A DNA stretch of 58,650 nt from Bdellovibrionales bacterium (GCA_023301025.1 JALZUR010000006.1:1-58650); one strand, 5' to 3'; positions 14,611 through 25,525 are shown, counted from the stretch's first letter. The notes: generated from the sequence alone by a model not told the origin. Numbers and translations are program-made.

Positions 14611-17589
14611 TTACTTTCTTTTAACACCTTTAACTTTTACTTTAAGGTTTATCCCTGAATGTTGACAATCTGAACTGTCATTGTCACCGATAACGACCAT
14701 TGAAAAGTTAAGAGATTTATTAAAGCCTCTGTCTAATATTGGAGAGATTGAAGACTCAGGAATATTTAAAGAGAACTCACCATTTCTGTCAGTAAGTGGT
14801 ATCTTACAGTTTTGACCAATAACTCCACCTCTACAATACAGCTCATCTGCCTTGAGACGATTAACATCTACTTGACCTTTAAGCATATGCCAATCGTATG
14901 ATAACTCTTCATTAGCAGTCATATTTAAAACTGAAACTTTGTTTGTAGCTAAAACTTTTCCATTTAAGTTTAAGTAAAAGTTATCATCGTATCTGAATGA
15001 ACTAGAACTTGAATTGCTTGAAGTTGTTGATACTGAAGCATCACAAAGGTGAAAATCTTCTTCAAGATTTACAGATATATTTTGATCGACAAAGGCCTGC
15101 ATATAACCATTTCTTTGACCTAAGTTATCTCCTTTTAACCACATACACGTTGTGTTTGTTGAATTAAAGTTAACATCATACTCTAAAGAGACCATGCTCT
15201 GATTAGCTGCAGCTTCTGCACAAAGTGCTGAGTAGTAACCATCAGTATTGCTATAAACACCCCAAGTGTACTTGTAAGATCTAGGGTTTTCACTTCCGTC
15301 GTTAAGAACAACTACAAAATTATGAATTCCGTTTGCTAGATTTGTAAACACTATAGGTTCATTTTGCAGACAAGGCGCTAAAGGGGCTTCATCTAAAGAG
15401 CAAAGTGTTTCAACATTTGAAGCAGGATCTAGGTAGAACTGAAATTCTGCATTTGGCGACTTTGAAACCTGTGGCGGATATCTGTCAAAATGAACTCTTT
15501 CATTGTTTTGACCATAACTTAAAAGGTTTCTTTTACCAATTAGATAAGCTTTTTTATCAGCACTTAAGTTAACAACTGTTCCATCAGCCTGCACAAATTG
15601 AATTCCTGTTAGTTCATCAACATGTAAAAAGTTAACATGAACTAAGTACTCTTCACCTGAAATTGGTCCAATTACACCACCATCAGAATTATCTATATAT
15701 CTTAGATTTGCAGAGTACACATTGTAGTTTTCAGTTACAGATGAAAGCTTAACTTCTGAAGCATCATCAGAAAGTAGAACTCTATCTTTCTTGTTATTGT
15801 TGTAAACTGTAATCTCGAGTTTTGTTTCTTCCCATTCTTTTGTATTACTGTTGTCTGAACTTGCAACAAAGTTAAGACTTAAACCATCAGAACCTTCGTA
15901 TAAAAATATCTTTAACACTCTAGGTTCTGGCTTAGGGCCATTAATAATTGAAGCTGAATAACTCTGATAGTTATAGTTTGAAGCTCCAGATTGAACACCG
16001 CTAAATTCCGAAACTTCTGAAATAAAGTTTTGATTTAAAGGAATTCGTTTTAAATCTTGATCTGACCATAAACCATACTTAGCTATAATCTGACCAGACT
16101 CTCCTAAACCTGTAAAATCATCGAATTTATTTAATGGATCAGAGCCAAAACTCACTTCTAAACCATCGTCAACTCCACCTTCATCAGTATCTTTGATCAA
16201 AGGATTTGTTCCAGTAGTGTTATGCTCAGCACCATCAGTTAGTGTATCACCATCTGTATCAGCAAGGTTTGGATCTGTTCCAAGCTCAAGCTCTTCAGCA
16301 TTTGTAAGACCATCTCCGTCAGTATCTACGTTTAGTAGTGTTTCATCATCAGTTGGATTAAGTGGATCTAAGTTGTTTGCAACTTCAGCTCCATCATTAA
16401 CACCACCCATATCTGTATCATTAATAAGAGGCGATGTTTGATAAACAAAAATCTCTGATCCATCTGTTAAATTATCATCATCAGTATCAGCGTTGTTTGG
16501 TAAAGTTCCAAGACTGATCTCTTGTGGGTTTGTTAAACCATCACCATCAGGATCTTGATTGTCAAAATCATCAGTCTCAAGAACTGGGCTTGATCCATTA
16601 GAAGCTTCTAAACCATCATTAGCACCACCATTATCAGTGTCACTTACCAAAGGATTTGAAGTGTAAAACCTATGCTCCACACCATCACTTAAACCATCTC
16701 CATCAGTGTCAGCTAGGTTAGGGTTTGAACCAATAGCTGCTTCTTCTTGATCAGTAAGTCCATCTTTGTCAGTGTCTAAATCAGAAAACTGAATATCGTC
16801 TTCTTCATTCTTAGGATTTGTACCTAAAGAAACCTCATCACCATCAGAGACACTTCCACCATCAGTGTCAGCTACAAGTGGGTTTGTTCCGTGAACAAAA
16901 ATTTCTGCTCCATCGGTTAAACCATCATCATCACTGTCTGGGTTATTTGGATCTGTTCCAAGTTGCGCCTCTTGAGTATCTAAAAGACCATCATTATCAG
17001 CGTCATTATCTTTTCTATCATCAGCTTGTAAAGTTGGATTTGTTCCCCTTGAAACTTCTAAACCATCATTAACACCACCCTTATCCGTGTCTTTTATCAG
17101 TGGGTTTGTGTTGTGAACGTTTACTTCTAGACCATCGTCTAAGCCATCTTCATCAGTATCAGCAACTGCTGGATCGGTTCCTAGTGCCGTTTCAGCTTCT
17201 AAAGTTAGGCCATCACCATCAAGATCAGAATCAGGCGTTAAGCCATCATCACTTCCATCTAAAGGGTCTAAACCAAAAGAAACTTCATCACCATCATTTA
17301 ATCCACCACCATCAGTGTCAGCTACAAGTGGATCTGTAGAAAAGGCATTAACCTCAGCACCATCAGTTAAACCATCTTCATCAGAATCAGGATTGTTTGA
17401 GTTTGTACCCATTTTATCTTCTAATGCAGCAGTGATTCCATCAGCATCAGCATCTGAGAACGCCTCTTCTGTAAATCTATTATTTCCTGCACCAAACTGC
17501 GAAGTTCCACAGTTTTGAAAACCTAAAATAATTGCAAAAAGGGCACCTAACCCAACTACAACCTTAACTTTAATATCAATTTTTTTCAT
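14611..17589 (-). CDS. Lipoprotein with six thrombospondin-type-3-like calcium repeats
   Basis: 992 residues. A signal peptide ends in an FQNC lipobox-like motif (C27). Residues about 46-496 hold six tandem units of about 75 residues, each with three acidic loops (for example DADNDGL, DSDDDGL, DTDGGS) and the recurring GTDPN, TDGAE and NPL segments; these resemble thrombospondin type 3 calcium repeats. The rest (500-992) is a strand-rich region with several cysteines (ETLCSLDEAPLAPCLQ) and no recognised domain. Such proteins are calcium-stiffened surface stalks. GGGAGC precedes the ATG. The strong acidity makes the reverse strand look like histidine- or serine-rich ORFs; these are shadows. 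Confidence 0.85.
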   Translation of the reverse strand: MKKIDIKVKVVVGLGALFAIILGFQNCGTSQFGAGNNRFTEEAFSDADADGITAALEDKMGTNSNNPDSDEDGLTDGAEVNAFSTDPLVADTDGGGLNDGDEVSFGLDPLDGSDDGLTPDSDLDGDGLTLEAETALGTDPAVADTDEDGLDDGLEVNVHNTNPLIKDTDKGGVNDGLEVSRGTNPTLQADDRKDNDADNDGLLDTQEAQLGTDPNNPDSDDDGLTDGAEIFVHGTNPLVADTDGGSVSDGDEVSLGTNPKNEEDDIQFSDLDTDKDGLTDQEEAAIGSNPNLADTDGDGLSDGVEHRFYTSNPLVSDTDNGGANDGLEASNGSSPVLETDDFDNQDPDGDGLTNPQEISLGTLPNNADTDDDNLTDGSEIFVYQTSPLINDTDMGGVNDGAEVANNLDPLNPTDDETLLNVDTDGDGLTNAEELELGTDPNLADTDGDTLTDGAEHNTTGTNPLIKDTDEGGVDDGLEVSFGSDPLNKFDDFTGLGESGQIIAKYGLWSDQDLKRIPLNQNFISEVSEFSGVQSGASNYNYQSYSASIINGPKPEPRVLKIFLYEGSDGLSLNFVASSDNSNTKEWEETKLEITVYNNNKKDRVLLSDDASEVKLSSVTENYNVYSANLRYIDNSDGGVIGPISGEEYLVHVNFLHVDELTGIQFVQADGTVVNLSADKKAYLIGKRNLLSYGQNNERVHFDRYPPQVSKSPNAEFQFYLDPASNVETLCSLDEAPLAPCLQNEPIVFTNLANGIHNFVVVLNDGSENPRSYKYTWGVYSNTDGYYSALCAEAAANQSMVSLEYDVNFNSTNTTCMWLKGDNLGQRNGYMQAFVDQNISVNLEEDFHLCDASVSTTSSNSSSSSFRYDDNFYLNLNGKVLATNKVSVLNMTANEELSYDWHMLKGQVDVNRLKADELYCRGGVIGQNCKIPLTDRNGEFSLNIPESSISPILDRGFNKSLNFSMVVIGDNDSSDCQHSGINLKVKVKGVKRK
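16101..17454 (-). repeat. Six coding tandem repeats (about 225 bases each) of the calcium-repeat lipoprotein
   Basis: Six units of about 75 codons align in phase, each starting near a DxDxDG loop and ending near a DD/NP segment. The DNA copies have diverged and are recognisable mainly as protein, so this is an old expansion, not a recent slippage tract. Confidence 0.7.
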
Positions 17590-17735: not shown

Positions 17736-20700
17736 TTATTTGTCTGTAATCATTTTTCTGGTCAACTGGCCTCTAATAATTACAGTTTTTAGTCTTCTCT
17801 TTTTCGAATCAGAAAATTTTCTAAATTCAAGTGCTAAGGCCGTTTCTATTTTATCACTAAAACGTGGCTTAGTCCTATTTGAAACTTTCGGTAAGTCTTT
17901 TGCTTTAACAATCCAATTAAACATATAATTAAGTCTGTCATACTCAAATTGCAAAAGAGGATATTTTTTGAATAGCTCTAAATCAAGCATAAAAGAAACA
18001 AGACTGCTCGAGCTAAATTCTTGAAAGTATTTATAAATTACATCTCCAAGACGTTTCATAGTTTTACTAAGAGCTTGATCTACACTGTTATCTATATTTT
18101 GGGGATAGATGTTATCTTTAACAGGGGCCATAACTCTAAGTCTGCTGCCCAAAGTATCTTTCATAAATTCAAAATACTCTAAAATGATCTCTTTTTTAAG
18201 ATCATCATCACCAGCTTTAAATCTTAAGTAAGCCGAAGTAACACTCTTATCATTTACTAAAGCAACTTGACCACCCATTGCTTCAAGCTTTTGAAAAACT
18301 CGAACTTCATAGGAGTCAGTTGATTTATTACGAGGCCACTCTTCATTAAATTCTATCCATAACCTAACATCTCGCTCCAAAATCATATCTGTTTGAATAC
18401 CTGTATTGTTAGATCTTTTAACAGGGCCAACAAATAATGATGGATAGCGCATCTGTGCACCACTACTAGATAAAAAGTCCAGTACTGTGGAATTGTTCGT
18501 AGCTTTAAGAAAGACATAAAGTCTGTCAGCAAGTTTTTTCATACTCAAATCTAAGCTGATGTTTTGAGTATCTAAAATTTCATTATCTTTTACAGGCATT
18601 ACTACACTCTCAAGCTTACCCTTATAAGCTGTTTTAAGATATGAGAAGTACTCTAAAAGAATTGAAAACCTGTGATTGATATCCGTATGTGTAAATTTAA
18701 GGTAAGGTGTGAGTTCAATTAACTCTTCTGTAATAATTTTTTTTCTTCCACCTATAGTTTGATTGATATAATTATAAAGTCCTTTTTCATAAGAACTCAA
18801 ACTCTTAGGAGTCGGCCACTCATCTTTTAACTTTAACCAAAGGCTAACATCCTCTAAACTAAATTTTTTCATTCTATCTTTTTTAGGCTCGAACACTTCA
18901 CCTGTTTTTTCTTGAATCTCTTTTGCCATGACATCAAAAGCATTTTTATCGATATAGTCTCTTCTTAAAAGACCTAAAGCTGTCTCAGAAAGCCCGCCTA
19001 AACTTGCTACAGCATGTAGAACAGCTTGCTCGTCACCTTTTAAAGAGTCCTCATCATCTGTTAAAGGAAGCTTGTTTCCCTTATCTAGCCAACTCTCAAC
19101 CAACGCCCACGCATCTTTTTCTCTAATATTAAATTTTCGTCTTTCTTCAACAACAAGTTTGCTGTTTCCAAAAAAGTCGTTTTCATAAAAAGCAACCTGA
19201 TTGCTTTCTAAGAGCTTTTCAGACAAAACCTCAGCAAATTGACTTGCTGCACGTTGGTGATTTTCTTTATCAAAAACTATTGAAACTTGATCTATTTCAC
19301 TGCTGAACTCATTAGGCTTTTTGGTATCTGAAGAAGAATTTGTATTCAAAGGATCTGAGATAGGGTCTTGAGCATAAAAACCACTGTCTAACATCTGATT
19401 GTAGTTTTGAAGCGACTCCATAATACCAAATGCAGTAGCATCAAATAAAGTTACTAACTCTACATTTTGTTTGCCTTCTGAGAGTCTAAGCACTCTACCT
19501 AAACGTTGTAAAACCTGCCGAGGACCAACCGATTTATTTAAATCAATATATAAAGAAGTGCCTTTCATATCTAGCCCCTCATCACCTTTTCTTACGGTGA
19601 TAAGCACATTCACACTGTCATTTAAAAGACCTTTAATTTTTTCTTGTTCAACGCGCAAACTATCACCCATTCCCGAATGAACAACTTCACTTTTTACCTC
19701 AGGAATTAAATCTTTTATAAAATTTTGAACCATATTTGTATCATCAATTGTAGGAGTTGTTATAAAGATACTTTTATGACTCTTTAATTTGCTTTTTAAA
19801 ACTGAAATAAGCCAAGACATTCTGTCTTCATTCAAAGAGTATCTTGTGTTGCCATCCTCTAAGTTTTTCTGAATGTGTAGATCTTCTGGTACGCCATTAT
19901 GCCCAGGAAGTAACATATAAGAACGGTATACACTGTTAACGTAGGATTTTCTTATGGCTTTTAGAAGTTCTTCAATAAAAACATCTTCTTTTAAAACATT
20001 TGTAGTCTGTTCAAAATAGCTATCTTCATCATGTGTCATCGCTAAAAACACTCTATTCTCAAAAAGATCATTTATAAGGTTAACCTTATAATGAAAAAGA
20101 GTAGCCGTTAGACCTAATAAAAAATAAGGCCTTTTTTGAAGTTCATTTGTTTGTTCTTTTAAAAGATTAAGAAAAGAAGAGATGTTATTTGCACCAGCAT
20201 GATGAACTTCATCATAAATAACAGCTTTTACGATTGTTGAAAGCTCTTCTAAATTTTCTTGCTGCTCTTCATAGGTTAGACCAACATCATCTTTTAGTAC
20301 TGCGCCAGGAAAAGCCTCTAAAGTTAATGAGCGAACAGTTGTAAAAAGAAACGTAAATTTTCCTTCAGCGCGTCTTTCATTGGCTAACCGTATAAGATCT
20401 TCTGTGTTTCCACTGTCATTTTTAGTCCAGTTGATAAGTGCCGAGTCATCACTAAACTGCTCTCTTAAAACAGGATCCTGTTCAATCATAGATTCTAAAT
20501 TTTGCAAAAGCACATGATTTTGATCGGCTGTGAGAACTATCAACCCGGGCTCAAGTGTTTTCAACATGACCTTTAAGCTTTCAATAGCAACATAAGTTTT
20601 TCCAAGTGCAGTTGTTCCCGCAAAGGCAAAACTTGAGTGTTCTAACTCAATTGCTTTTTCAAGTGCTCGAACACCACTAACTTGTGGGGGTTTAGGCTTA

Positions 20701-21191
20701 AAATAAGATTTCTTTAAATAACTTGAAGCTACATAAGGATGAACGGGATGACTTCTAAAAATATTTAAAAGAAAGAGTTCAGTATCTTCAGTTAAAATCA
20801 CTAAATCGTTTCTAGGTAAAATAACTTCAACTATTAGTTTTCCTGATTTATCAGTTTTCTCAAAAGCTTTAACATCTTTAGAGTCGTCTGAAGAACTTAC
20901 AATATATTCAGGTAAAACTATTCCATCTTTTAAAGTGATCGCGGGTATAATAACTTTTTTCTTTAAAACTCTTACTTTCAATTTTGAATCAGAAAGCCTT
21001 TCACCTAAAGCATTAGATAAAACATTAAAAATCAGACCCCCGACACTACCTACATTTCCAAGTGTTTTTCCAGTCGGTTCTGATGACAACAATGTAGCTA
21101 GAGCTACGTTACACGTATCCGATTCACTTCCATAAAGCTTTAAAGGGGTAACAAGAGTGAGAATAGTTGCCAAAGTCGTCCAAAATTTCAT
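17736..21191 (-). CDS. SF2 DEAD/DEAH-box helicase with N-terminal signal peptide
   Basis: 1151 residues. Residues 1-21 look like a Sec signal peptide (basic K2, then hydrophobic TLATILTLVTPLKLYG). The helicase core has motif I AGTTALGKT (191-199), motif II DEVHH (327-331), motif III LTAT (361-364) and motif VI QRLGRVLR (562-569), i.e. two RecA-like lobes of the type seen in restriction- and repair-associated helicases. The last about 400 residues contain two clear repeat modules (about 780-930 and 940-1092), each with a DVxLW...EWP segment followed by a helical part, similar in layout to helicase-associated modules. ATP hydrolysis and strand translocation are expected. A periplasmic destination would be strange, since ATP is scarce there. 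Confidence 0.8.
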   Translation of the reverse strand: MKFWTTLATILTLVTPLKLYGSESDTCNVALATLLSSEPTGKTLGNVGSVGGLIFNVLSNALGERLSDSKLKVRVLKKKVIIPAITLKDGIVLPEYIVSSSDDSKDVKAFEKTDKSGKLIVEVILPRNDLVILTEDTELFLLNIFRSHPVHPYVASSYLKKSYFKPKPPQVSGVRALEKAIELEHSSFAFAGTTALGKTYVAIESLKVMLKTLEPGLIVLTADQNHVLLQNLESMIEQDPVLREQFSDDSALINWTKNDSGNTEDLIRLANERRAEGKFTFLFTTVRSLTLEAFPGAVLKDDVGLTYEEQQENLEELSTIVKAVIYDEVHHAGANNISSFLNLLKEQTNELQKRPYFLLGLTATLFHYKVNLINDLFENRVFLAMTHDEDSYFEQTTNVLKEDVFIEELLKAIRKSYVNSVYRSYMLLPGHNGVPEDLHIQKNLEDGNTRYSLNEDRMSWLISVLKSKLKSHKSIFITTPTIDDTNMVQNFIKDLIPEVKSEVVHSGMGDSLRVEQEKIKGLLNDSVNVLITVRKGDEGLDMKGTSLYIDLNKSVGPRQVLQRLGRVLRLSEGKQNVELVTLFDATAFGIMESLQNYNQMLDSGFYAQDPISDPLNTNSSSDTKKPNEFSSEIDQVSIVFDKENHQRAASQFAEVLSEKLLESNQVAFYENDFFGNSKLVVEERRKFNIREKDAWALVESWLDKGNKLPLTDDEDSLKGDEQAVLHAVASLGGLSETALGLLRRDYIDKNAFDVMAKEIQEKTGEVFEPKKDRMKKFSLEDVSLWLKLKDEWPTPKSLSSYEKGLYNYINQTIGGRKKIITEELIELTPYLKFTHTDINHRFSILLEYFSYLKTAYKGKLESVVMPVKDNEILDTQNISLDLSMKKLADRLYVFLKATNNSTVLDFLSSSGAQMRYPSLFVGPVKRSNNTGIQTDMILERDVRLWIEFNEEWPRNKSTDSYEVRVFQKLEAMGGQVALVNDKSVTSAYLRFKAGDDDLKKEIILEYFEFMKDTLGSRLRVMAPVKDNIYPQNIDNSVDQALSKTMKRLGDVIYKYFQEFSSSSLVSFMLDLELFKKYPLLQFEYDRLNYMFNWIVKAKDLPKVSNRTKPRFSDKIETALALEFRKFSDSKKRRLKTVIIRGQLTRKMITDK

Positions 21192-21318: not shown

Positions 21319-22179
21319 TTAAAGCAACAAAGAGGTGCCTTTATGCAAATCACCAGGTGTAATTCGCATAAACCTTTTAAATACATTTGTGAAATGGCTT
21401 TGATCAGAAAAACCCATATTTAAAGATACAGTAGATAGATTTACAACATCACCTTTAATGACTGTTAAAGATTTGTTGATCTTAAGCACATTAAAGTATT
21501 GCCTTGGTGTTATACCAAAAGTGTTTTTGAAAACTCTAGCAAGATAAGATGTGCTAATTCCCAGGCTATCACAAGCCTGTTGAATCGTGATTTCATCAGA
21601 AGCTTTAATAGTATTAAAAAAACTGTTAACAGTCTGTCTATGAGCTTCGTTTGAGATAGAGAAAGCTTCAGGAATACAGCTTGCGTCAGCATGAAGATAT
21701 TTTGTTAAACTTTCATAAAAAATCTTTATATTTTTTATAGTTTCAGGACCTACAGATCTTTCATCTGGAGTTAAATTAATAGTTTGTGTGATAACCTCTT
21801 GTCCAAATTTTAAAAAGTTTTCTTTAAGCTCTTCACATAAAACAGAATAAACACCAAGCTTAGATTTTTCATAAAAATTAGATTTTTTAGTATCTATGAA
21901 TCTTAAGTGAATAAATATTGCAGGCGTACTCTTGTTAATAAGATGGTAGTACACACCTGGAGGTATAAAAAAAAAGTCCCCTTTTTTTAAAGGAACCTCG
22001 TTTTTTAAAAAAGACCAAGAGCTTTCACCATCAACACAAAGTACAGCATCGTACCCAGTAGACAAAAGCTGAACTTGACCTCTTTGTGAAGGATCAAAAA
22101 CTGTAAAAAGAGCAAGAGTTTCTTCAAACTGTACAGAGTATCTTCCATAAAAATTTTTGTGTTCCTGTACTAAAGACAT
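21319..22179 (-). CDS. AraC-family transcriptional regulator
   Basis: About 286 residues from the ATG used; a TTG 33 bases upstream is possible. The N-terminal half is a cupin-like sensing domain (GYDAVLCVDGESSW, then KGDFFFIPPGVYYHL). The C-terminal about 100 residues carry the two helix-turn-helix units of the AraC family (TIQQACDSLGISTSYLARVF and VSLNMGFSDQSHFTNVFKRF, ending ITPGDLHK). It follows the haem-motif barrel gene by about 70 bases from this start and is probably the last gene of the redox operon, which it may regulate. The ligand is unknown. Confidence 0.85.
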   Translation of the reverse strand: MSLVQEHKNFYGRYSVQFEETLALFTVFDPSQRGQVQLLSTGYDAVLCVDGESSWSFLKNEVPLKKGDFFFIPPGVYYHLINKSTPAIFIHLRFIDTKKSNFYEKSKLGVYSVLCEELKENFLKFGQEVITQTINLTPDERSVGPETIKNIKIFYESLTKYLHADASCIPEAFSISNEAHRQTVNSFFNTIKASDEITIQQACDSLGISTSYLARVFKNTFGITPRQYFNVLKINKSLTVIKGDVVNLSTVSLNMGFSDQSHFTNVFKRFMRITPGDLHKGTSLLL

Positions 22180-22247
22180 ACCTAAATTATTGCAAAAAAT
22201 AGTAGGTATCAACTACATCAAAGTTGTATTTTGTAATGTTTATTAAA

Positions 22248-23402
22248 TTAGTAGTAAACCTGTGCCATTATAAAGCCAAAGTGACTCTTATTTGGGTCAT
22301 TTTTGATATCTATGTTTTGATATTCAATTTGCAAATTAACATGAGGAACAGGTAGCCACTGAAGACCAAGGCCAGGAGCTTTAGTAAAATCACTAGAGAT
22401 ATCTACATTTTGATTTATATCAAAAATACCATAAGCTCTAAATCCCTTAAAAAACTTATAACCAAGACGTGTATGAGTGATCAATCGATCTGCACTATCA
22501 GCAAAAGAATTTGGATTTTCTAAAACATTTAGATTCTCATAGTCTAACTCATAAACAATATACATTTTTTCTGAAAGCGCGCTAACACCTGAAAGTCCGA
22601 CTAATGAACGACTAAAAGATGGGCTCTCCCCATAAAGATAATTAAAACTTAATCTTGAGTTCCCATTTAGATAGTGCGTAAATTTAAACAGCCCAGATCT
22701 TTCATCTCTTAAAGTTCTGCTTAAATCAATACGACCAAAAGAGTAGTTTGCAAGAATCTCGAAATTTTCAAAAAATTGAGTATACTCAACATTGTAGCGC
22801 TCGGAATAAGATCCAAAGTTTAAATTTCTCTTAACCATTCTATTATGATTTGGATCATTCAACCCGTAATCCACTCTAAACTTCCCTAACCGTAAGCGCG
22901 ATGTTTCGGTTAGGTTGGCTAATACAAAATGCCTTTCAGAAATAAACTCTCTATGATTTTCAATACTCTTAGGGCCCTCTTGACTGCCTAAGGTACCTAC
23001 AAGCATTAATCCTTTATGCTTTAAGCCAATTTCAACATTATTTTGCATAACAAAAAGTGCTCTATCATTAATTTGCGGTGTATCTAAATACCTTTGCAAT
23101 GATCTGAAGTCTCCTCCAACTCTTGCCCATTCACTTTCTTTAAATAGACCACCAAAAGACTGCTCCACACCATCTGCAAGCTTCCACGTGCTCATCAACT
23201 CAGAAGAAAGACTTCTACCATAATCGTTTAACAGGTCACCACCGGATGGCGAATAGTGACAGGTTAAACAGTTGGTATAGCCATGAGTAGCATTTTCTAA
23301 AAAAGCATAAGCATTTTTTGAAGATAAAGTCATAAATGAAAAAAACAAAAAAAATACGAAATAAAGTAAATACTTAGAAATAGAGTTTTTTGTTTTTAAC
23401 AT
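22248..23402 (-). CDS. Outer-membrane barrel-like protein with one c-type haem motif
   Basis: About 384 residues from an ATG preceded by AAAAGGTG; an in-frame GTG nine bases upstream overlaps that site. A signal peptide (about 1-33, ending NAYA) is followed by NCLTCHYSPSGGDLLNDYGR, a single CxxCH haem-attachment site near the mature N-terminus. The remaining about 300 residues show regularly spaced beta strands (many Y, F, N, R; RLGKFRVDYG, LQIEYQNID) and end in MAQVYY. This suggests a beta-barrel with an attached haem domain, perhaps passing electrons at or across the outer membrane. It lies in an operon with a dihaem lipoprotein, YceI and a YHS protein. Confidence 0.72.
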   Translation of the reverse strand: MLKTKNSISKYLLYFVFFLFFSFMTLSSKNAYAFLENATHGYTNCLTCHYSPSGGDLLNDYGRSLSSELMSTWKLADGVEQSFGGLFKESEWARVGGDFRSLQRYLDTPQINDRALFVMQNNVEIGLKHKGLMLVGTLGSQEGPKSIENHREFISERHFVLANLTETSRLRLGKFRVDYGLNDPNHNRMVKRNLNFGSYSERYNVEYTQFFENFEILANYSFGRIDLSRTLRDERSGLFKFTHYLNGNSRLSFNYLYGESPSFSRSLVGLSGVSALSEKMYIVYELDYENLNVLENPNSFADSADRLITHTRLGYKFFKGFRAYGIFDINQNVDISSDFTKAPGLGLQWLPVPHVNLQIEYQNIDIKNDPNKSHFGFIMAQVYY

Positions 23403-23447
23403 TAGTTGCACCTTTTATTATTTAAAAATATCTTTTAGTTTTTAAAA

Positions 23448-24041
23448 TTATTTTTTTAAACCAGCTAAATCAATATCACTTTTTAACTCATTTACTTGAA
23501 TAAGACTAGTAACACTTATCTTAACATCTTCTGCTACGGTAACACCTTTAAATGACGGTATAGCTATACCGAAATCAGAGATCTTTATATTAAAGTCAGC
23601 TTTAACTGTATTTATGTTTTTCTTAGTACCTTTAAATGAAAGTTTACCTTCCACAGGTTTTTCAACATTATGTAGTTTTAGTAACCCAGAAAAACTTATT
23701 TTACCTTTAAGATTTTTTGGAAGCACTAGATCTTTAAGAGTAAGTAGAGCTTTTGGATACTTTTCTACCTCAAGGTACTTATTTTTCATATGATTATCTC
23801 TTAAAGAGATTCCTGTTTCAAATGATGAAATATCAAGTTCAACTTGTCCTGAAGCTTTATTGTCTTTTACTTTTAACTTGCCGTAAGCACCTTTTCCTTT
23901 ACCCTTAATTTTTAAAAGTGCCGGACGACCTTTTGCTAAAAATTCGACGGTTCCTTTATCTGAATTTAAAACAAGCTCTTGATCTGCAAATGTTATAGAG
24001 CCTATAAAAAATAGAAGTGTTGCTGTTATTAGTGATTTCAT
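23448..24041 (-). CDS. YceI-family periplasmic lipid-binding protein
   Basis: About 197 residues. The start chosen is the second in-frame ATG, because AAAGGATT lies just before it; the ATG 18 bases upstream has no ribosome site. A signal peptide ends SITFAD. The body is a YceI lipocalin-like barrel with typical segments: SGQVELDISSFETGISLRDNHMK, split across residues about 65-88, and KYPKALLTL, LKLHNVEKPVEGKL. YceI proteins bind polyisoprenoid or other long lipids and often sit beside cytochromes. The C-terminus adds a short basic tail. Confidence 0.85.
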   Translation of the reverse strand: MKSLITATLLFFIGSITFADQELVLNSDKGTVEFLAKGRPALLKIKGKGKGAYGKLKVKDNKASGQVELDISSFETGISLRDNHMKNKYLEVEKYPKALLTLKDLVLPKNLKGKISFSGLLKLHNVEKPVEGKLSFKGTKKNINTVKADFNIKISDFGIAIPSFKGVTVAEDVKISVTSLIQVNELKSDIDLAGLKK

Positions 24042-24149
24042 TGTTAATCCTTTTTTCATTTTGTTTATTTTTTAATTTTTTAATTTTATCTAATTATTTT
24101 TATTAATGACTGATTAAACTCAATTGATCCCTCAATAATTATTAATCTA

Positions 24150-24863
24150 TCAATCATTTGGGAACCCTTTTTTAATCCATTCAATTAGAACTGATACTTC
24201 CTCTTCTGTTAGTTGAGGAAGTGGGTTTAAATTATACTCTTCGTTTCCAGGAAGAACCAATGGTGGCATGGGTGAAACTGTATCTGTAACCAAAAAAATG
24301 ATTTCTGATTCATCAGCTAAATCTTGATCTAAAAAACCTTCTCCAAAAAGCTCTGCATAGTTATTATTAGACTCTATTATCTTTTCATAGCTTGATAGAT
24401 TAATTTCAGTAGGTGCTGGAGAGTTTGTAGAGCCGTTGTGACACGACAAACATTTCGGCCCTAAAACATTAGTAAAAATTGATTTAAATGTGGGCTCAAG
24501 TGATATTGGTACCTTCTCTTCGCCCCCAGCCTCTAATGGAGATCCATCATTGACCCAACTGTTAAACATTGATTTCTCTTGAGAACTTAGCTGAGGTCCA
24601 CCTTTTGGCATGCGACCGCTAAAAATTGCATTAAAAAGTCTGTCACTTTGAGCAGCGACTGAATCATAGTCTTTATAGTTATCATGGCAGCGCAAACACT
24701 TAGGACCAATGATTTCATTAAAGATATCATCAAAACCAAAACTCATAGCATTGCCATTTGCACCTGATTGCGCAAAAGCTGTTTCAGGATTAATTTTCAA
24801 TCTTGTTTTATTTCCACAACTCACAAGAAGTGGAATCATTATAAGAAAAATTAATTTCATCAT
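24150..24863 (-). CDS. Dihaem c-type cytochrome-like lipoprotein
   Basis: About 237 residues from an ATG behind GGGGGC; a longer TTG start is unlikely. The lipobox LVSC gives C16 for lipidation. Two c-type haem sites, GPKCLRCH (C56, C59, H60) and GPKCLSCH (C138, C141, H142), head two repeat halves that each resemble the planctomycete-type cytochrome c domain (NSWVNDGSP and EWIKKGFPND at their ends). Methionines in GRMPKGGP and SPMPPLV may be distal ligands. It probably carries electrons in the periplasm, anchored to a membrane. Confidence 0.85.
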   Translation of the reverse strand: MMKLIFLIMIPLLVSCGNKTRLKINPETAFAQSGANGNAMSFGFDDIFNEIIGPKCLRCHDNYKDYDSVAAQSDRLFNAIFSGRMPKGGPQLSSQEKSMFNSWVNDGSPLEAGGEEKVPISLEPTFKSIFTNVLGPKCLSCHNGSTNSPAPTEINLSSYEKIIESNNNYAELFGEGFLDQDLADESEIIFLVTDTVSPMPPLVLPGNEEYNLNPLPQLTEEEVSVLIEWIKKGFPND

Positions 24864-24916
24864 TTTCGCTGCCCCCAACTAAACTTTTTTATTTTATTGA
24901 TTTAATTTTAAATTTC

Positions 24917-25525
24917 TTACAAATCATTTTCTAAAATATTAAACCAACTATCGTCTGATTGAGATTGAAAACCTCTTGATGTTTCAAGAATAGTTTCAGC
25001 ATCTTTATCGCCAGCTAACGTCTTTTCTAGAATTTCAACAGAAGTTAAACCTCTTGTTGTTCTTCTATGGTTAAAGTTTTCCATTGCTCTTTGTGCTACA
25101 AAAAAATGAATTCTAATTTTATTACCTTCATCATCAAAATCAAAAGAGAAAAAACGCGTATCTATTGGAACCCTACCACCTGTTCGCATCGCCCAAGCAC
25201 AATAACCACCATAAGTAGGCTCATACTTTTCAGGATTTGTTAAAAACTCTGCACGATTCTCTTCATTGGCAAACCTATAAACAGTACCGCCAAAGTTTTC
25301 TGAGATATCACTTATACCTTTTTCAGGACTAGCGTTAAAAAAAGACACTGGATCAAAACCATCAATAGCTACGGGCACCTGTTGCGGATTTGATTTAGAA
25401 ACTATGTATTCTCTATCAAACTGTTCCAGACGATCATCAATCTGTGCGTATGATTCTGCACCCACAACTAATCCAAGCGTTAAAACAAGTATTAAATTCA
25501 AGCTTAAGCTTATTATTCTGTTCAT
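24917..25525 (-). CDS. YHS-domain periplasmic protein
   Basis: 202 residues with a signal peptide ending ESYA, and AGGGGGAAA before the ATG. The YHS domain is clear: VAIDGFDPVSFF, then YRFANEENRAEFL and KYEPTYGGYCAWAM. YHS domains bind metal and accompany metal or redox proteins; the family role is not well defined. This is the first gene of the run that continues with the dihaem lipoprotein, YceI and the haem-motif barrel. The C-terminal 60 residues are acidic and not part of the domain. Confidence 0.85.
   Translation of the reverse strand: MNRIISLSLNLILVLTLGLVVGAESYAQIDDRLEQFDREYIVSKSNPQQVPVAIDGFDPVSFFNASPEKGISDISENFGGTVYRFANEENRAEFLTNPEKYEPTYGGYCAWAMRTGGRVPIDTRFFSFDFDDEGNKIRIHFFVAQRAMENFNHRRTTRGLTSVEILEKTLAGDKDAETILETSRGFQSQSDDSWFNILENDL

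Follow-up and report, generated by a model that had tools for sequence, protein, structure and literature searches.

A 58,650-nucleotide stretch of DNA from a Bdellovibrionales bacterium (GCA_023301025.1 JALZUR010000006.1:1-58650; hereafter the window) encodes a large superfamily 2 (SF2) helicase that appears to begin with a signal peptide. Because SF2 motors depend on ATP, they are regarded as cytoplasmic, and the locus raises the question of whether such a motor is exported and, if so, where it could work. On the sequence features discussed below, we consider the protein very probably Sec-exported. We further lean towards the view that it belongs to a family of translocases that leave the cell that makes them and remodel nucleic acid elsewhere, most likely in prey or host cells supplying ATP.

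We first considered whether the leader and the motor belong to one gene. The open reading frame (ORF) starts at its most upstream in-frame ATG, and its N terminus, MKFWTTLATILTLVTPLKLYG followed by SESDTC, has a lysine in the n-region, an uncharged hydrophobic core with an 11-residue Kyte-Doolittle maximum of 2.0, and a small residue at -1, which by simple rules makes LYG a possible signal-peptidase site (Table 1). These features bear out the Sec-type leader proposed in an initial annotation of the window. The ORF has no further in-frame ATG before codon 209, past motif I, so that an ATG start lacking the leader would also remove the ATP-binding loop; TTG or GTG starts at codons 34, 35, 71, and 131 are formally possible. 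Downstream of the leader, the protein has the two RecA-like domains, intact Walker A, DExH box, and motif VI arginines that define SF2, with Pfam ResIII and Helicase_C matches above their gathering cut-offs; the main helicase motifs, which the same annotation had listed, were all found (GKT, DEVHH, TATL, and QRLGR). The motor residues were invariant in an alignment of 12 family members. Sequence-profile searches matched the motor to SauUSI (7clg, the best match, 9.5e-21), RadD (6jde, 2.1e-13), XPB, and UvrB. Predicted structures of the window protein and of an 832-amino-acid (aa) relative resembled duplex translocases, namely, SauUSI, RadD, Hef, SNF2 remodellers, and RIG-I/MDA5, the best fold match of the relative's model having a Z of 17.8 over 281 residues (root mean square deviation, 3.7) with many ties. 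In the AlphaFold model of the window protein, the core was usable (predicted local distance difference test [pLDDT] scores mostly 60 to 85), the remainder averaging 49, and the relative's model had a mean pLDDT of 58; since confidence beyond the motor is low, the modelled C-terminal folds are tentative.

Searches of 39 related genomes and then of the order, the class, and the phylum (369 genomes) gave about 20 relatives, spread over 13 further Bdellovibrionota genomes, at roughly 20 to 45% identity. Seventeen of the 369 genomes matched at E <= 1e-20, including three weak matches that were set aside (G249, G272, and G077, about 1e-21 to 1e-25). Counting that of the window, about 14 genomes hold a convincing member. 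The family is spread over five GTDB families (best profile E, 5e-50 to 1e-247), with most members in the window's own family and the others in f13, f14, f23, and f28; the window protein alone matched an independent relative with an E of 2.3e-30. A scan of genome contigs with the window protein alone gave no match, and a profile scan of the genomes of 84,980 species returned only Bdellovibrionales metagenome-assembled genomes (MAGs) and one called Bradymonadales (L036), whose protein is the same as L126; the genome of L126, G363, is placed in the Bdellovibrionota phylum. The next matches were ordinary SF2 helicases, with an E of 3e-14 or weaker. In a tree of the motors, the family stood apart from control helicases (support, 97/95), with the window protein on the family side. 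One genome of 1.7 Mb, G133, carries five copies, three of them consecutive. In the core, the ratio of nonsynonymous to synonymous substitution rates (dN/dS) was 0.12 to 0.17 among these three tandem paralogues and 0.12 between two sigma-fused proteins described below, low values which indicate that the motors are kept by purifying selection. By eye, the flanks of the relatives look like housekeeping genes; a scan of viral contigs found distant ordinary SF2 helicases only, and a phage or mobile origin was therefore rejected. The family is apparently unnamed and matched none of the curated families tested.

The leader turned out to be a family trait. We scored leaders with a home-made rule, a hydrophobic 11-mer without charges plus a positive n-region. 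It was passed by 19 of 20 family members, the window protein included, versus 0 of 53 control SF2 helicases at any candidate start; nor did any of 13 other SF2 helicases encoded by G000, the window's genome, and by G133 pass. The sole family member to fail, L028, has a leader visible behind a longer start. Cleavage sites were clear in L035 (AYA), L026 (IQA), and L124 (TLA) and weak or unclear in L023 and in the window protein. The initial annotation had suggested looking for conservation of the leader in related genomes, and across the phylum, all relatives whose 5' end is intact begin with one. It had also named relatives that start downstream without a leader as evidence against export; none was found among the about 20 relatives, so that this objection does not arise.

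A second line of evidence came from the cysteines. Among the 1,151 residues of the window protein is a single cysteine, which lies shortly after the leader, where members that keep the N-terminal domain have an early cysteine as well. Cysteine was found at 1 of 7,087 motor-core residues in the family versus 93 of 8,022 in the remaining SF2 helicases from G000 and G133, and when C termini were included, the family count was 5 of 17,906, compared with 0.94% for control helicases and 1.1% for neighbouring ORFs. The N-terminal domain, of about 110 to 150 aa, ends in GHxLHPY (SHPVHPY in the window protein) and is shared by relatives from separate GTDB families (hhalign probability 98%, E of 2.3e-13). 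Eleven members have both cysteines of a CxxxC-type pair (three to seven residues between them), eight with the domain have neither, and none has only one; to judge from its sequence, the pair would look like a disulfide formed outside the cytoplasm. The window protein lacks this pair. Few or paired cysteines are what is expected of a protein in a non-reducing compartment. The possibility that the conserved cysteine is a lipoprotein cysteine was discarded, no lipobox preceding it in the sequences read. A side observation concerns one member, L022:7101-11462, in which residues about 119 to 141 of the N-terminal domain form a strongly basic insert (KKKKLERKKRNKKARRKK) resembling a nuclear localization signal (NLS) and absent in nearly all members.

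Leaders and cysteines together bear on two readings without release from the producer. A leader with a positive n-region inserts with its N terminus in and its C terminus out, and even an uncleaved leader would consequently place the motor outside the cytoplasm. Thus, of the two options in the initial annotation, export is supported by the leaders and the scarcity of cysteine, whereas an uncleaved anchor facing the cytoplasm is disfavoured by this topology and because a cytoplasmic protein would not need to lose its cysteines. That the leader is an uncleaved signal anchor holding the protein in the producer's inner membrane, with the motor in the producer's own periplasm or at its surface and working on DNA that comes in or lies on the surface, would suit the weak cleavage sites of some members, but many others have clear sites and the periplasm has no ATP, which makes it quite improbable. 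We regard as very improbable a spurious leader, or one that acts as an N-out anchor, with the helicase serving defence, repair, or DNA uptake in the producer's cytoplasm. The core does resemble the defence and repair helicases SauUSI, RadD, PbeA, and dnd-type, but every intact member has a leader, with an n-region predicting N-in insertion, cysteine is nearly absent, and no curated defence model was reached. The window protein scored 36.3 bits against a cut-off of 600 for the Dnd/Pbe-type restriction helicase (TIGR04095; 53 to 67 bits in relatives where listed), and cas3_core (TIGR01587) reached 37.4 of 102.45 bits; PADLOC and NCBIfam gave only partial core matches far under curated cut-offs. 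Membership in any of these systems was rejected.

Behind the motor, the family carries different modules. In the window protein, the two C-terminal repeats of roughly 155 residues that had been noted initially were confirmed (alignment score of 187 for about 156 aa; shuffled mean, 34.5; standard deviation, 6.3; z = 24). They had no hidden Markov model match to the C termini of relatives, and homology between the two was rejected; a W/F...P...E..L pattern was enriched (5 versus 0.4 in shuffles) but had been chosen after looking. Tandem repeats of about 60 aa that resemble integrase repeats follow the motor in L021a-c, L023, L025, and L029; the resemblance does not extend to a name, since the best INT_rpt (PF14882) score, 17.9 bits in L121, was below the gathering cut-off of 26.5. 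L026 has a winged helix (HTH_24, 3e-6, above its gathering cut-off). Two members, from two MAGs of one genus, are fused to sigma-70 regions (L022:7101-11462 in G133 and L024:8606-11854 in G134; Sigma70_r2 and Sigma70_r4 above their gathering cut-offs). Their C termini scored 96.6 and 73.0 bits, respectively, for the sigma-70 superfamily (TIGR02937; cut-off, 42.9) and covered positions 5 to 262 and 5 to 259 of the 270 of the RpoH model (TIGR02392; 1.8e-44 and 4.8e-34), at 152.4 and 118.2 bits, below the RpoH equivalog cut-off of 323.1. The ordinary RpoH-like genes of the same genomes are separate and, at about 242 to 273 bits, also under that cut-off. Both fusions retain a region-2.2-like DLVQxGNxxLxxAxxAYxxExGYRFSTFA, and their occurrence in two genomes, with the low core dN/dS between them, indicates that the fusion is not a one-off assembly error.

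Two further observations concern these modules. The three tandem leader-helicase genes of G133 (L021:1537-13115) differ in their numbers of the about 60-aa repeats (tandem period, 186 to 216 bp), possibly forming a targeting array with perhaps fast change. Degenerate paralogues with a leader also occur, namely, L119:307-2952 (G120), without the DExH motif, and L121:3-1193 (G123), a helicase remnant that lost most of the motor and kept its repeats, suggesting that the modules may work without it.

We then asked where an exported motor could act. In the route we favour, the leader would carry the unfolded protein through SecYEG and be cleaved, after which the mature N-terminal domain, with its conserved cysteine and, in most cases, a disulfide-like pair, would fold outside the cytoplasm, and the protein would cross the outer membrane. 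The window's genome encodes the type II secretin GspD (G000:C41), as do 38 of the 39 related genomes; because nearly all relatives have one, the secretin is only permissive, and type II secretion was set aside as a discriminating partner. The nearly cysteine-free motor and the C-terminal modules, which would bind nucleic acid, would then act in another compartment containing ATP. Since the motor needs ATP, a useful destination would be the contents of another cell, likeliest a prey (or host) cell that has been invaded or permeabilised and that the protein would enter. There, the C-terminal modules would select the nucleic-acid target and the motor may travel along duplex DNA or RNA or remodel it, for example, by displacing bound proteins or redirecting transcription. 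Prey is the likeliest target, ahead of host cells and of an aid to digestion, because the sigma and winged-helix modules suggest DNA and the sigma fusions also bacterial RNA polymerase, and because of the phylum. Action inside invaded prey would fit both these RpoH-like sigma and winged-helix modules and the secretion of nucleases by Bdellovibrio, the leader-bearing DNases Bd0934 and Bd3507 of B. bacteriovorus being secreted into the bdelloplast (PMC7925074). A more specific proposal, possible although rather less probable, is that the family comprises exported, ATP-driven remodellers of transcription or the nucleoid with interchangeable targeting modules, including a near-complete sigma factor, which predatory or host-associated Bdellovibrionota would deliver into another cell to take over the nucleic acid or RNA polymerase of the victim.

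Secretion into the bdelloplast also suggests a simpler role, in which the helicase is a feeding enzyme that opens up nucleic acid or removes its bound proteins so that secreted nucleases can degrade it, there or in the surroundings, with ATP that leaks from the dying cell and without any regulatory role. Export would then be explained without entry into an intact cytoplasm, and Bdellovibrio does release hydrolases and nucleases with leaders into the bdelloplast (PMC7925074, PMC2797640). We nevertheless think this unlikely, as it leaves unexplained the RpoH-like sigma and winged-helix fusions, the swapping of modules, and the five copies in a 1.7-Mb genome; moreover, ATP would be short-lived in these places, and the loci read show no obvious nuclease gene adjacent to a helicase. 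The helicase could instead be an effector that works in eukaryotic host cells, perhaps in the nucleus; several carriers appear to have a sponge-microbiome origin. The titles of carrier MAGs contain the same sample codes as those of Poribacteria bins (APA_bin_46 and APA_bin_38), Poribacteria being sponge symbionts, multicopy genomes are small (1.5 to 1.7 Mb), and L022 has its NLS-like segment. This, too, is doubtful, since a sigma-factor module of bacterial type implicates bacterial RNA polymerase and basic clusters occur only in L022 and L125, nearly the whole family, the window protein included, being without them; nuclear targeting was rejected.

Several points weigh against remodelling in prey. 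An ATPase of about 125 kDa must get into the cytoplasm of another cell, and an ATP-free periplasm would leave the motor idle. Export and activity are predicted from sequence, any link of the family to predation is presumptive, and the leader evidence depends on our home-made rule. The difference in core cysteines from the SF2 helicases of the same genomes has a Fisher p of 1.4e-24, which overstates the result because residues of related proteins, here mostly 20 to 45% identical, are not independent observations. The window protein forms a long branch (2.03) in the motor tree, and its N-terminal domain matches the family over only 23 columns around SHPVHPY. Finally, the family is rare, and its carriers are, by their titles, all uncultured MAGs.

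Table 1. Features of the helicase gene, in window positions
Feature	Residues (aa)	Position	Strand	Remark
Coding sequence of the SF2 helicase, probably exported, ATG to TAA	1-1151	17736..21191	-	1151 aa, ORF reading
Sec-type leader	1-21	21129..21191	-	Possible cleavage after G21
Mature N-terminal domain	22-167	20691..21128	-	Family-wide; diverged in window protein
Cys27 codon	27	21111..21113	-	Sole cysteine of protein; cysteine soon after leader conserved in family
HPVHPY motif	148-153	20733..20750	-	Counterpart of family signature GHxLHPY just before motor
RecA-like domain 1 (ResIII)	164-365	20097..20702	-	Pfam, 5.4e-13, above gathering cut-off
Motif I, GKT	197-199	20595..20603	-	Conserved alignment column
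Motif II, DEVHH	327-331	20199..20213	-	Conserved alignment column
Motif III, TATL	362-365	20097..20108	-	Conserved alignment column
RecA-like domain 2 (Helicase_C)	459-570	19482..19817	-	Pfam, 3.9e-9, above gathering cut-off
Motif VI, QRLGR	562-566	19494..19508	-	Conserved alignment column
Putative truncated repeat front part (AWALVESWLDKGNKLP...)	693-735	18987..19115	-	Motif level only; pairwise z < 1, unproven
C-terminal repeat 1	775-930	18402..18869	-	Self-alignment versus shuffles
C-terminal repeat 2	935-1090	17922..18389	-	Self-alignment versus shuffles

Looking at the neighbouring genes, the exported calcium-repeat protein reported in the initial annotation was recovered on the same strand at 14611-17589 as a leader-bearing bacterial TSP3 (calcium-type) repeat protein (PF18884, 2.2e-48); nothing links it functionally to the helicase. 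Its leader ends in FQNC, and the same FQNC follows the leader of a neighbour of L028 (L028:646-1299), perhaps reflecting a lineage-specific lipobox. ORFs 16193-16441 and 16818-17072, antisense to the TSP3 repeats and with serine- and histidine-rich translations, are most likely repeat artefacts rather than genes. On the other side, positions 21319-25525 hold an AraC-type regulator with a cupin domain, followed by same-strand genes for exported proteins, including YceI and a weak cytochrome match, which together seem to form a gene group of their own.

Conservation of the leaders throughout a family found across the phylum, in proteins whose motors have almost no cysteine, suggests that some bacteria put SF2 motors to use beyond the cytoplasm in which they are made. 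Were prey the target, such motors would offer a route to reprogramme, and not only digest, the prey genome, and the sigma-factor fusions make this directly testable with Escherichia coli RNA polymerase.

We finally compared the family with known systems. Among the papers covered, phrase searches found no exported helicase or sigma factor, and the portions of the Bdellovibrio literature consulted mention neither protein with a leader; an exported helicase, sometimes fused to a transcription factor, thus appears to be undescribed. One predatosome paper lists a helicase induced on prey contact, Bd1370, which may or may not be related to the family. SauUSI, RadD, PbeA, and dnd-type ResIII helicases are leaderless cytoplasmic restriction or repair enzymes that have the two-RecA SF2 core in common with the family (PADLOC PbeA, partial match, 1.7e-12 for the window protein), but the family differs from them in its leader, its cysteine-bearing N-terminal domain, its nearly cysteine-free core, and its C termini. 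SNF2 remodellers and the RIG-I/MDA5-like duplex translocases are alike in motor fold class, without membership at the sequence level, and this similarity of predicted folds does not establish function. Bd0934 and Bd3507 are, like the family, nucleic-acid enzymes with predicted signal peptides (PMC7925074), but they are DNases, whereas the family has an ATP-driven motor. Zea, an RNA-binding protein secreted by Listeria, is a secreted nucleic-acid binder, as we propose for the family, but is small and has no motor (PMC6907008). RpoH (sigma-32) is the closest counterpart of the L022 and L024 C termini, which match most of its model but are fused behind a helicase that is probably exported.
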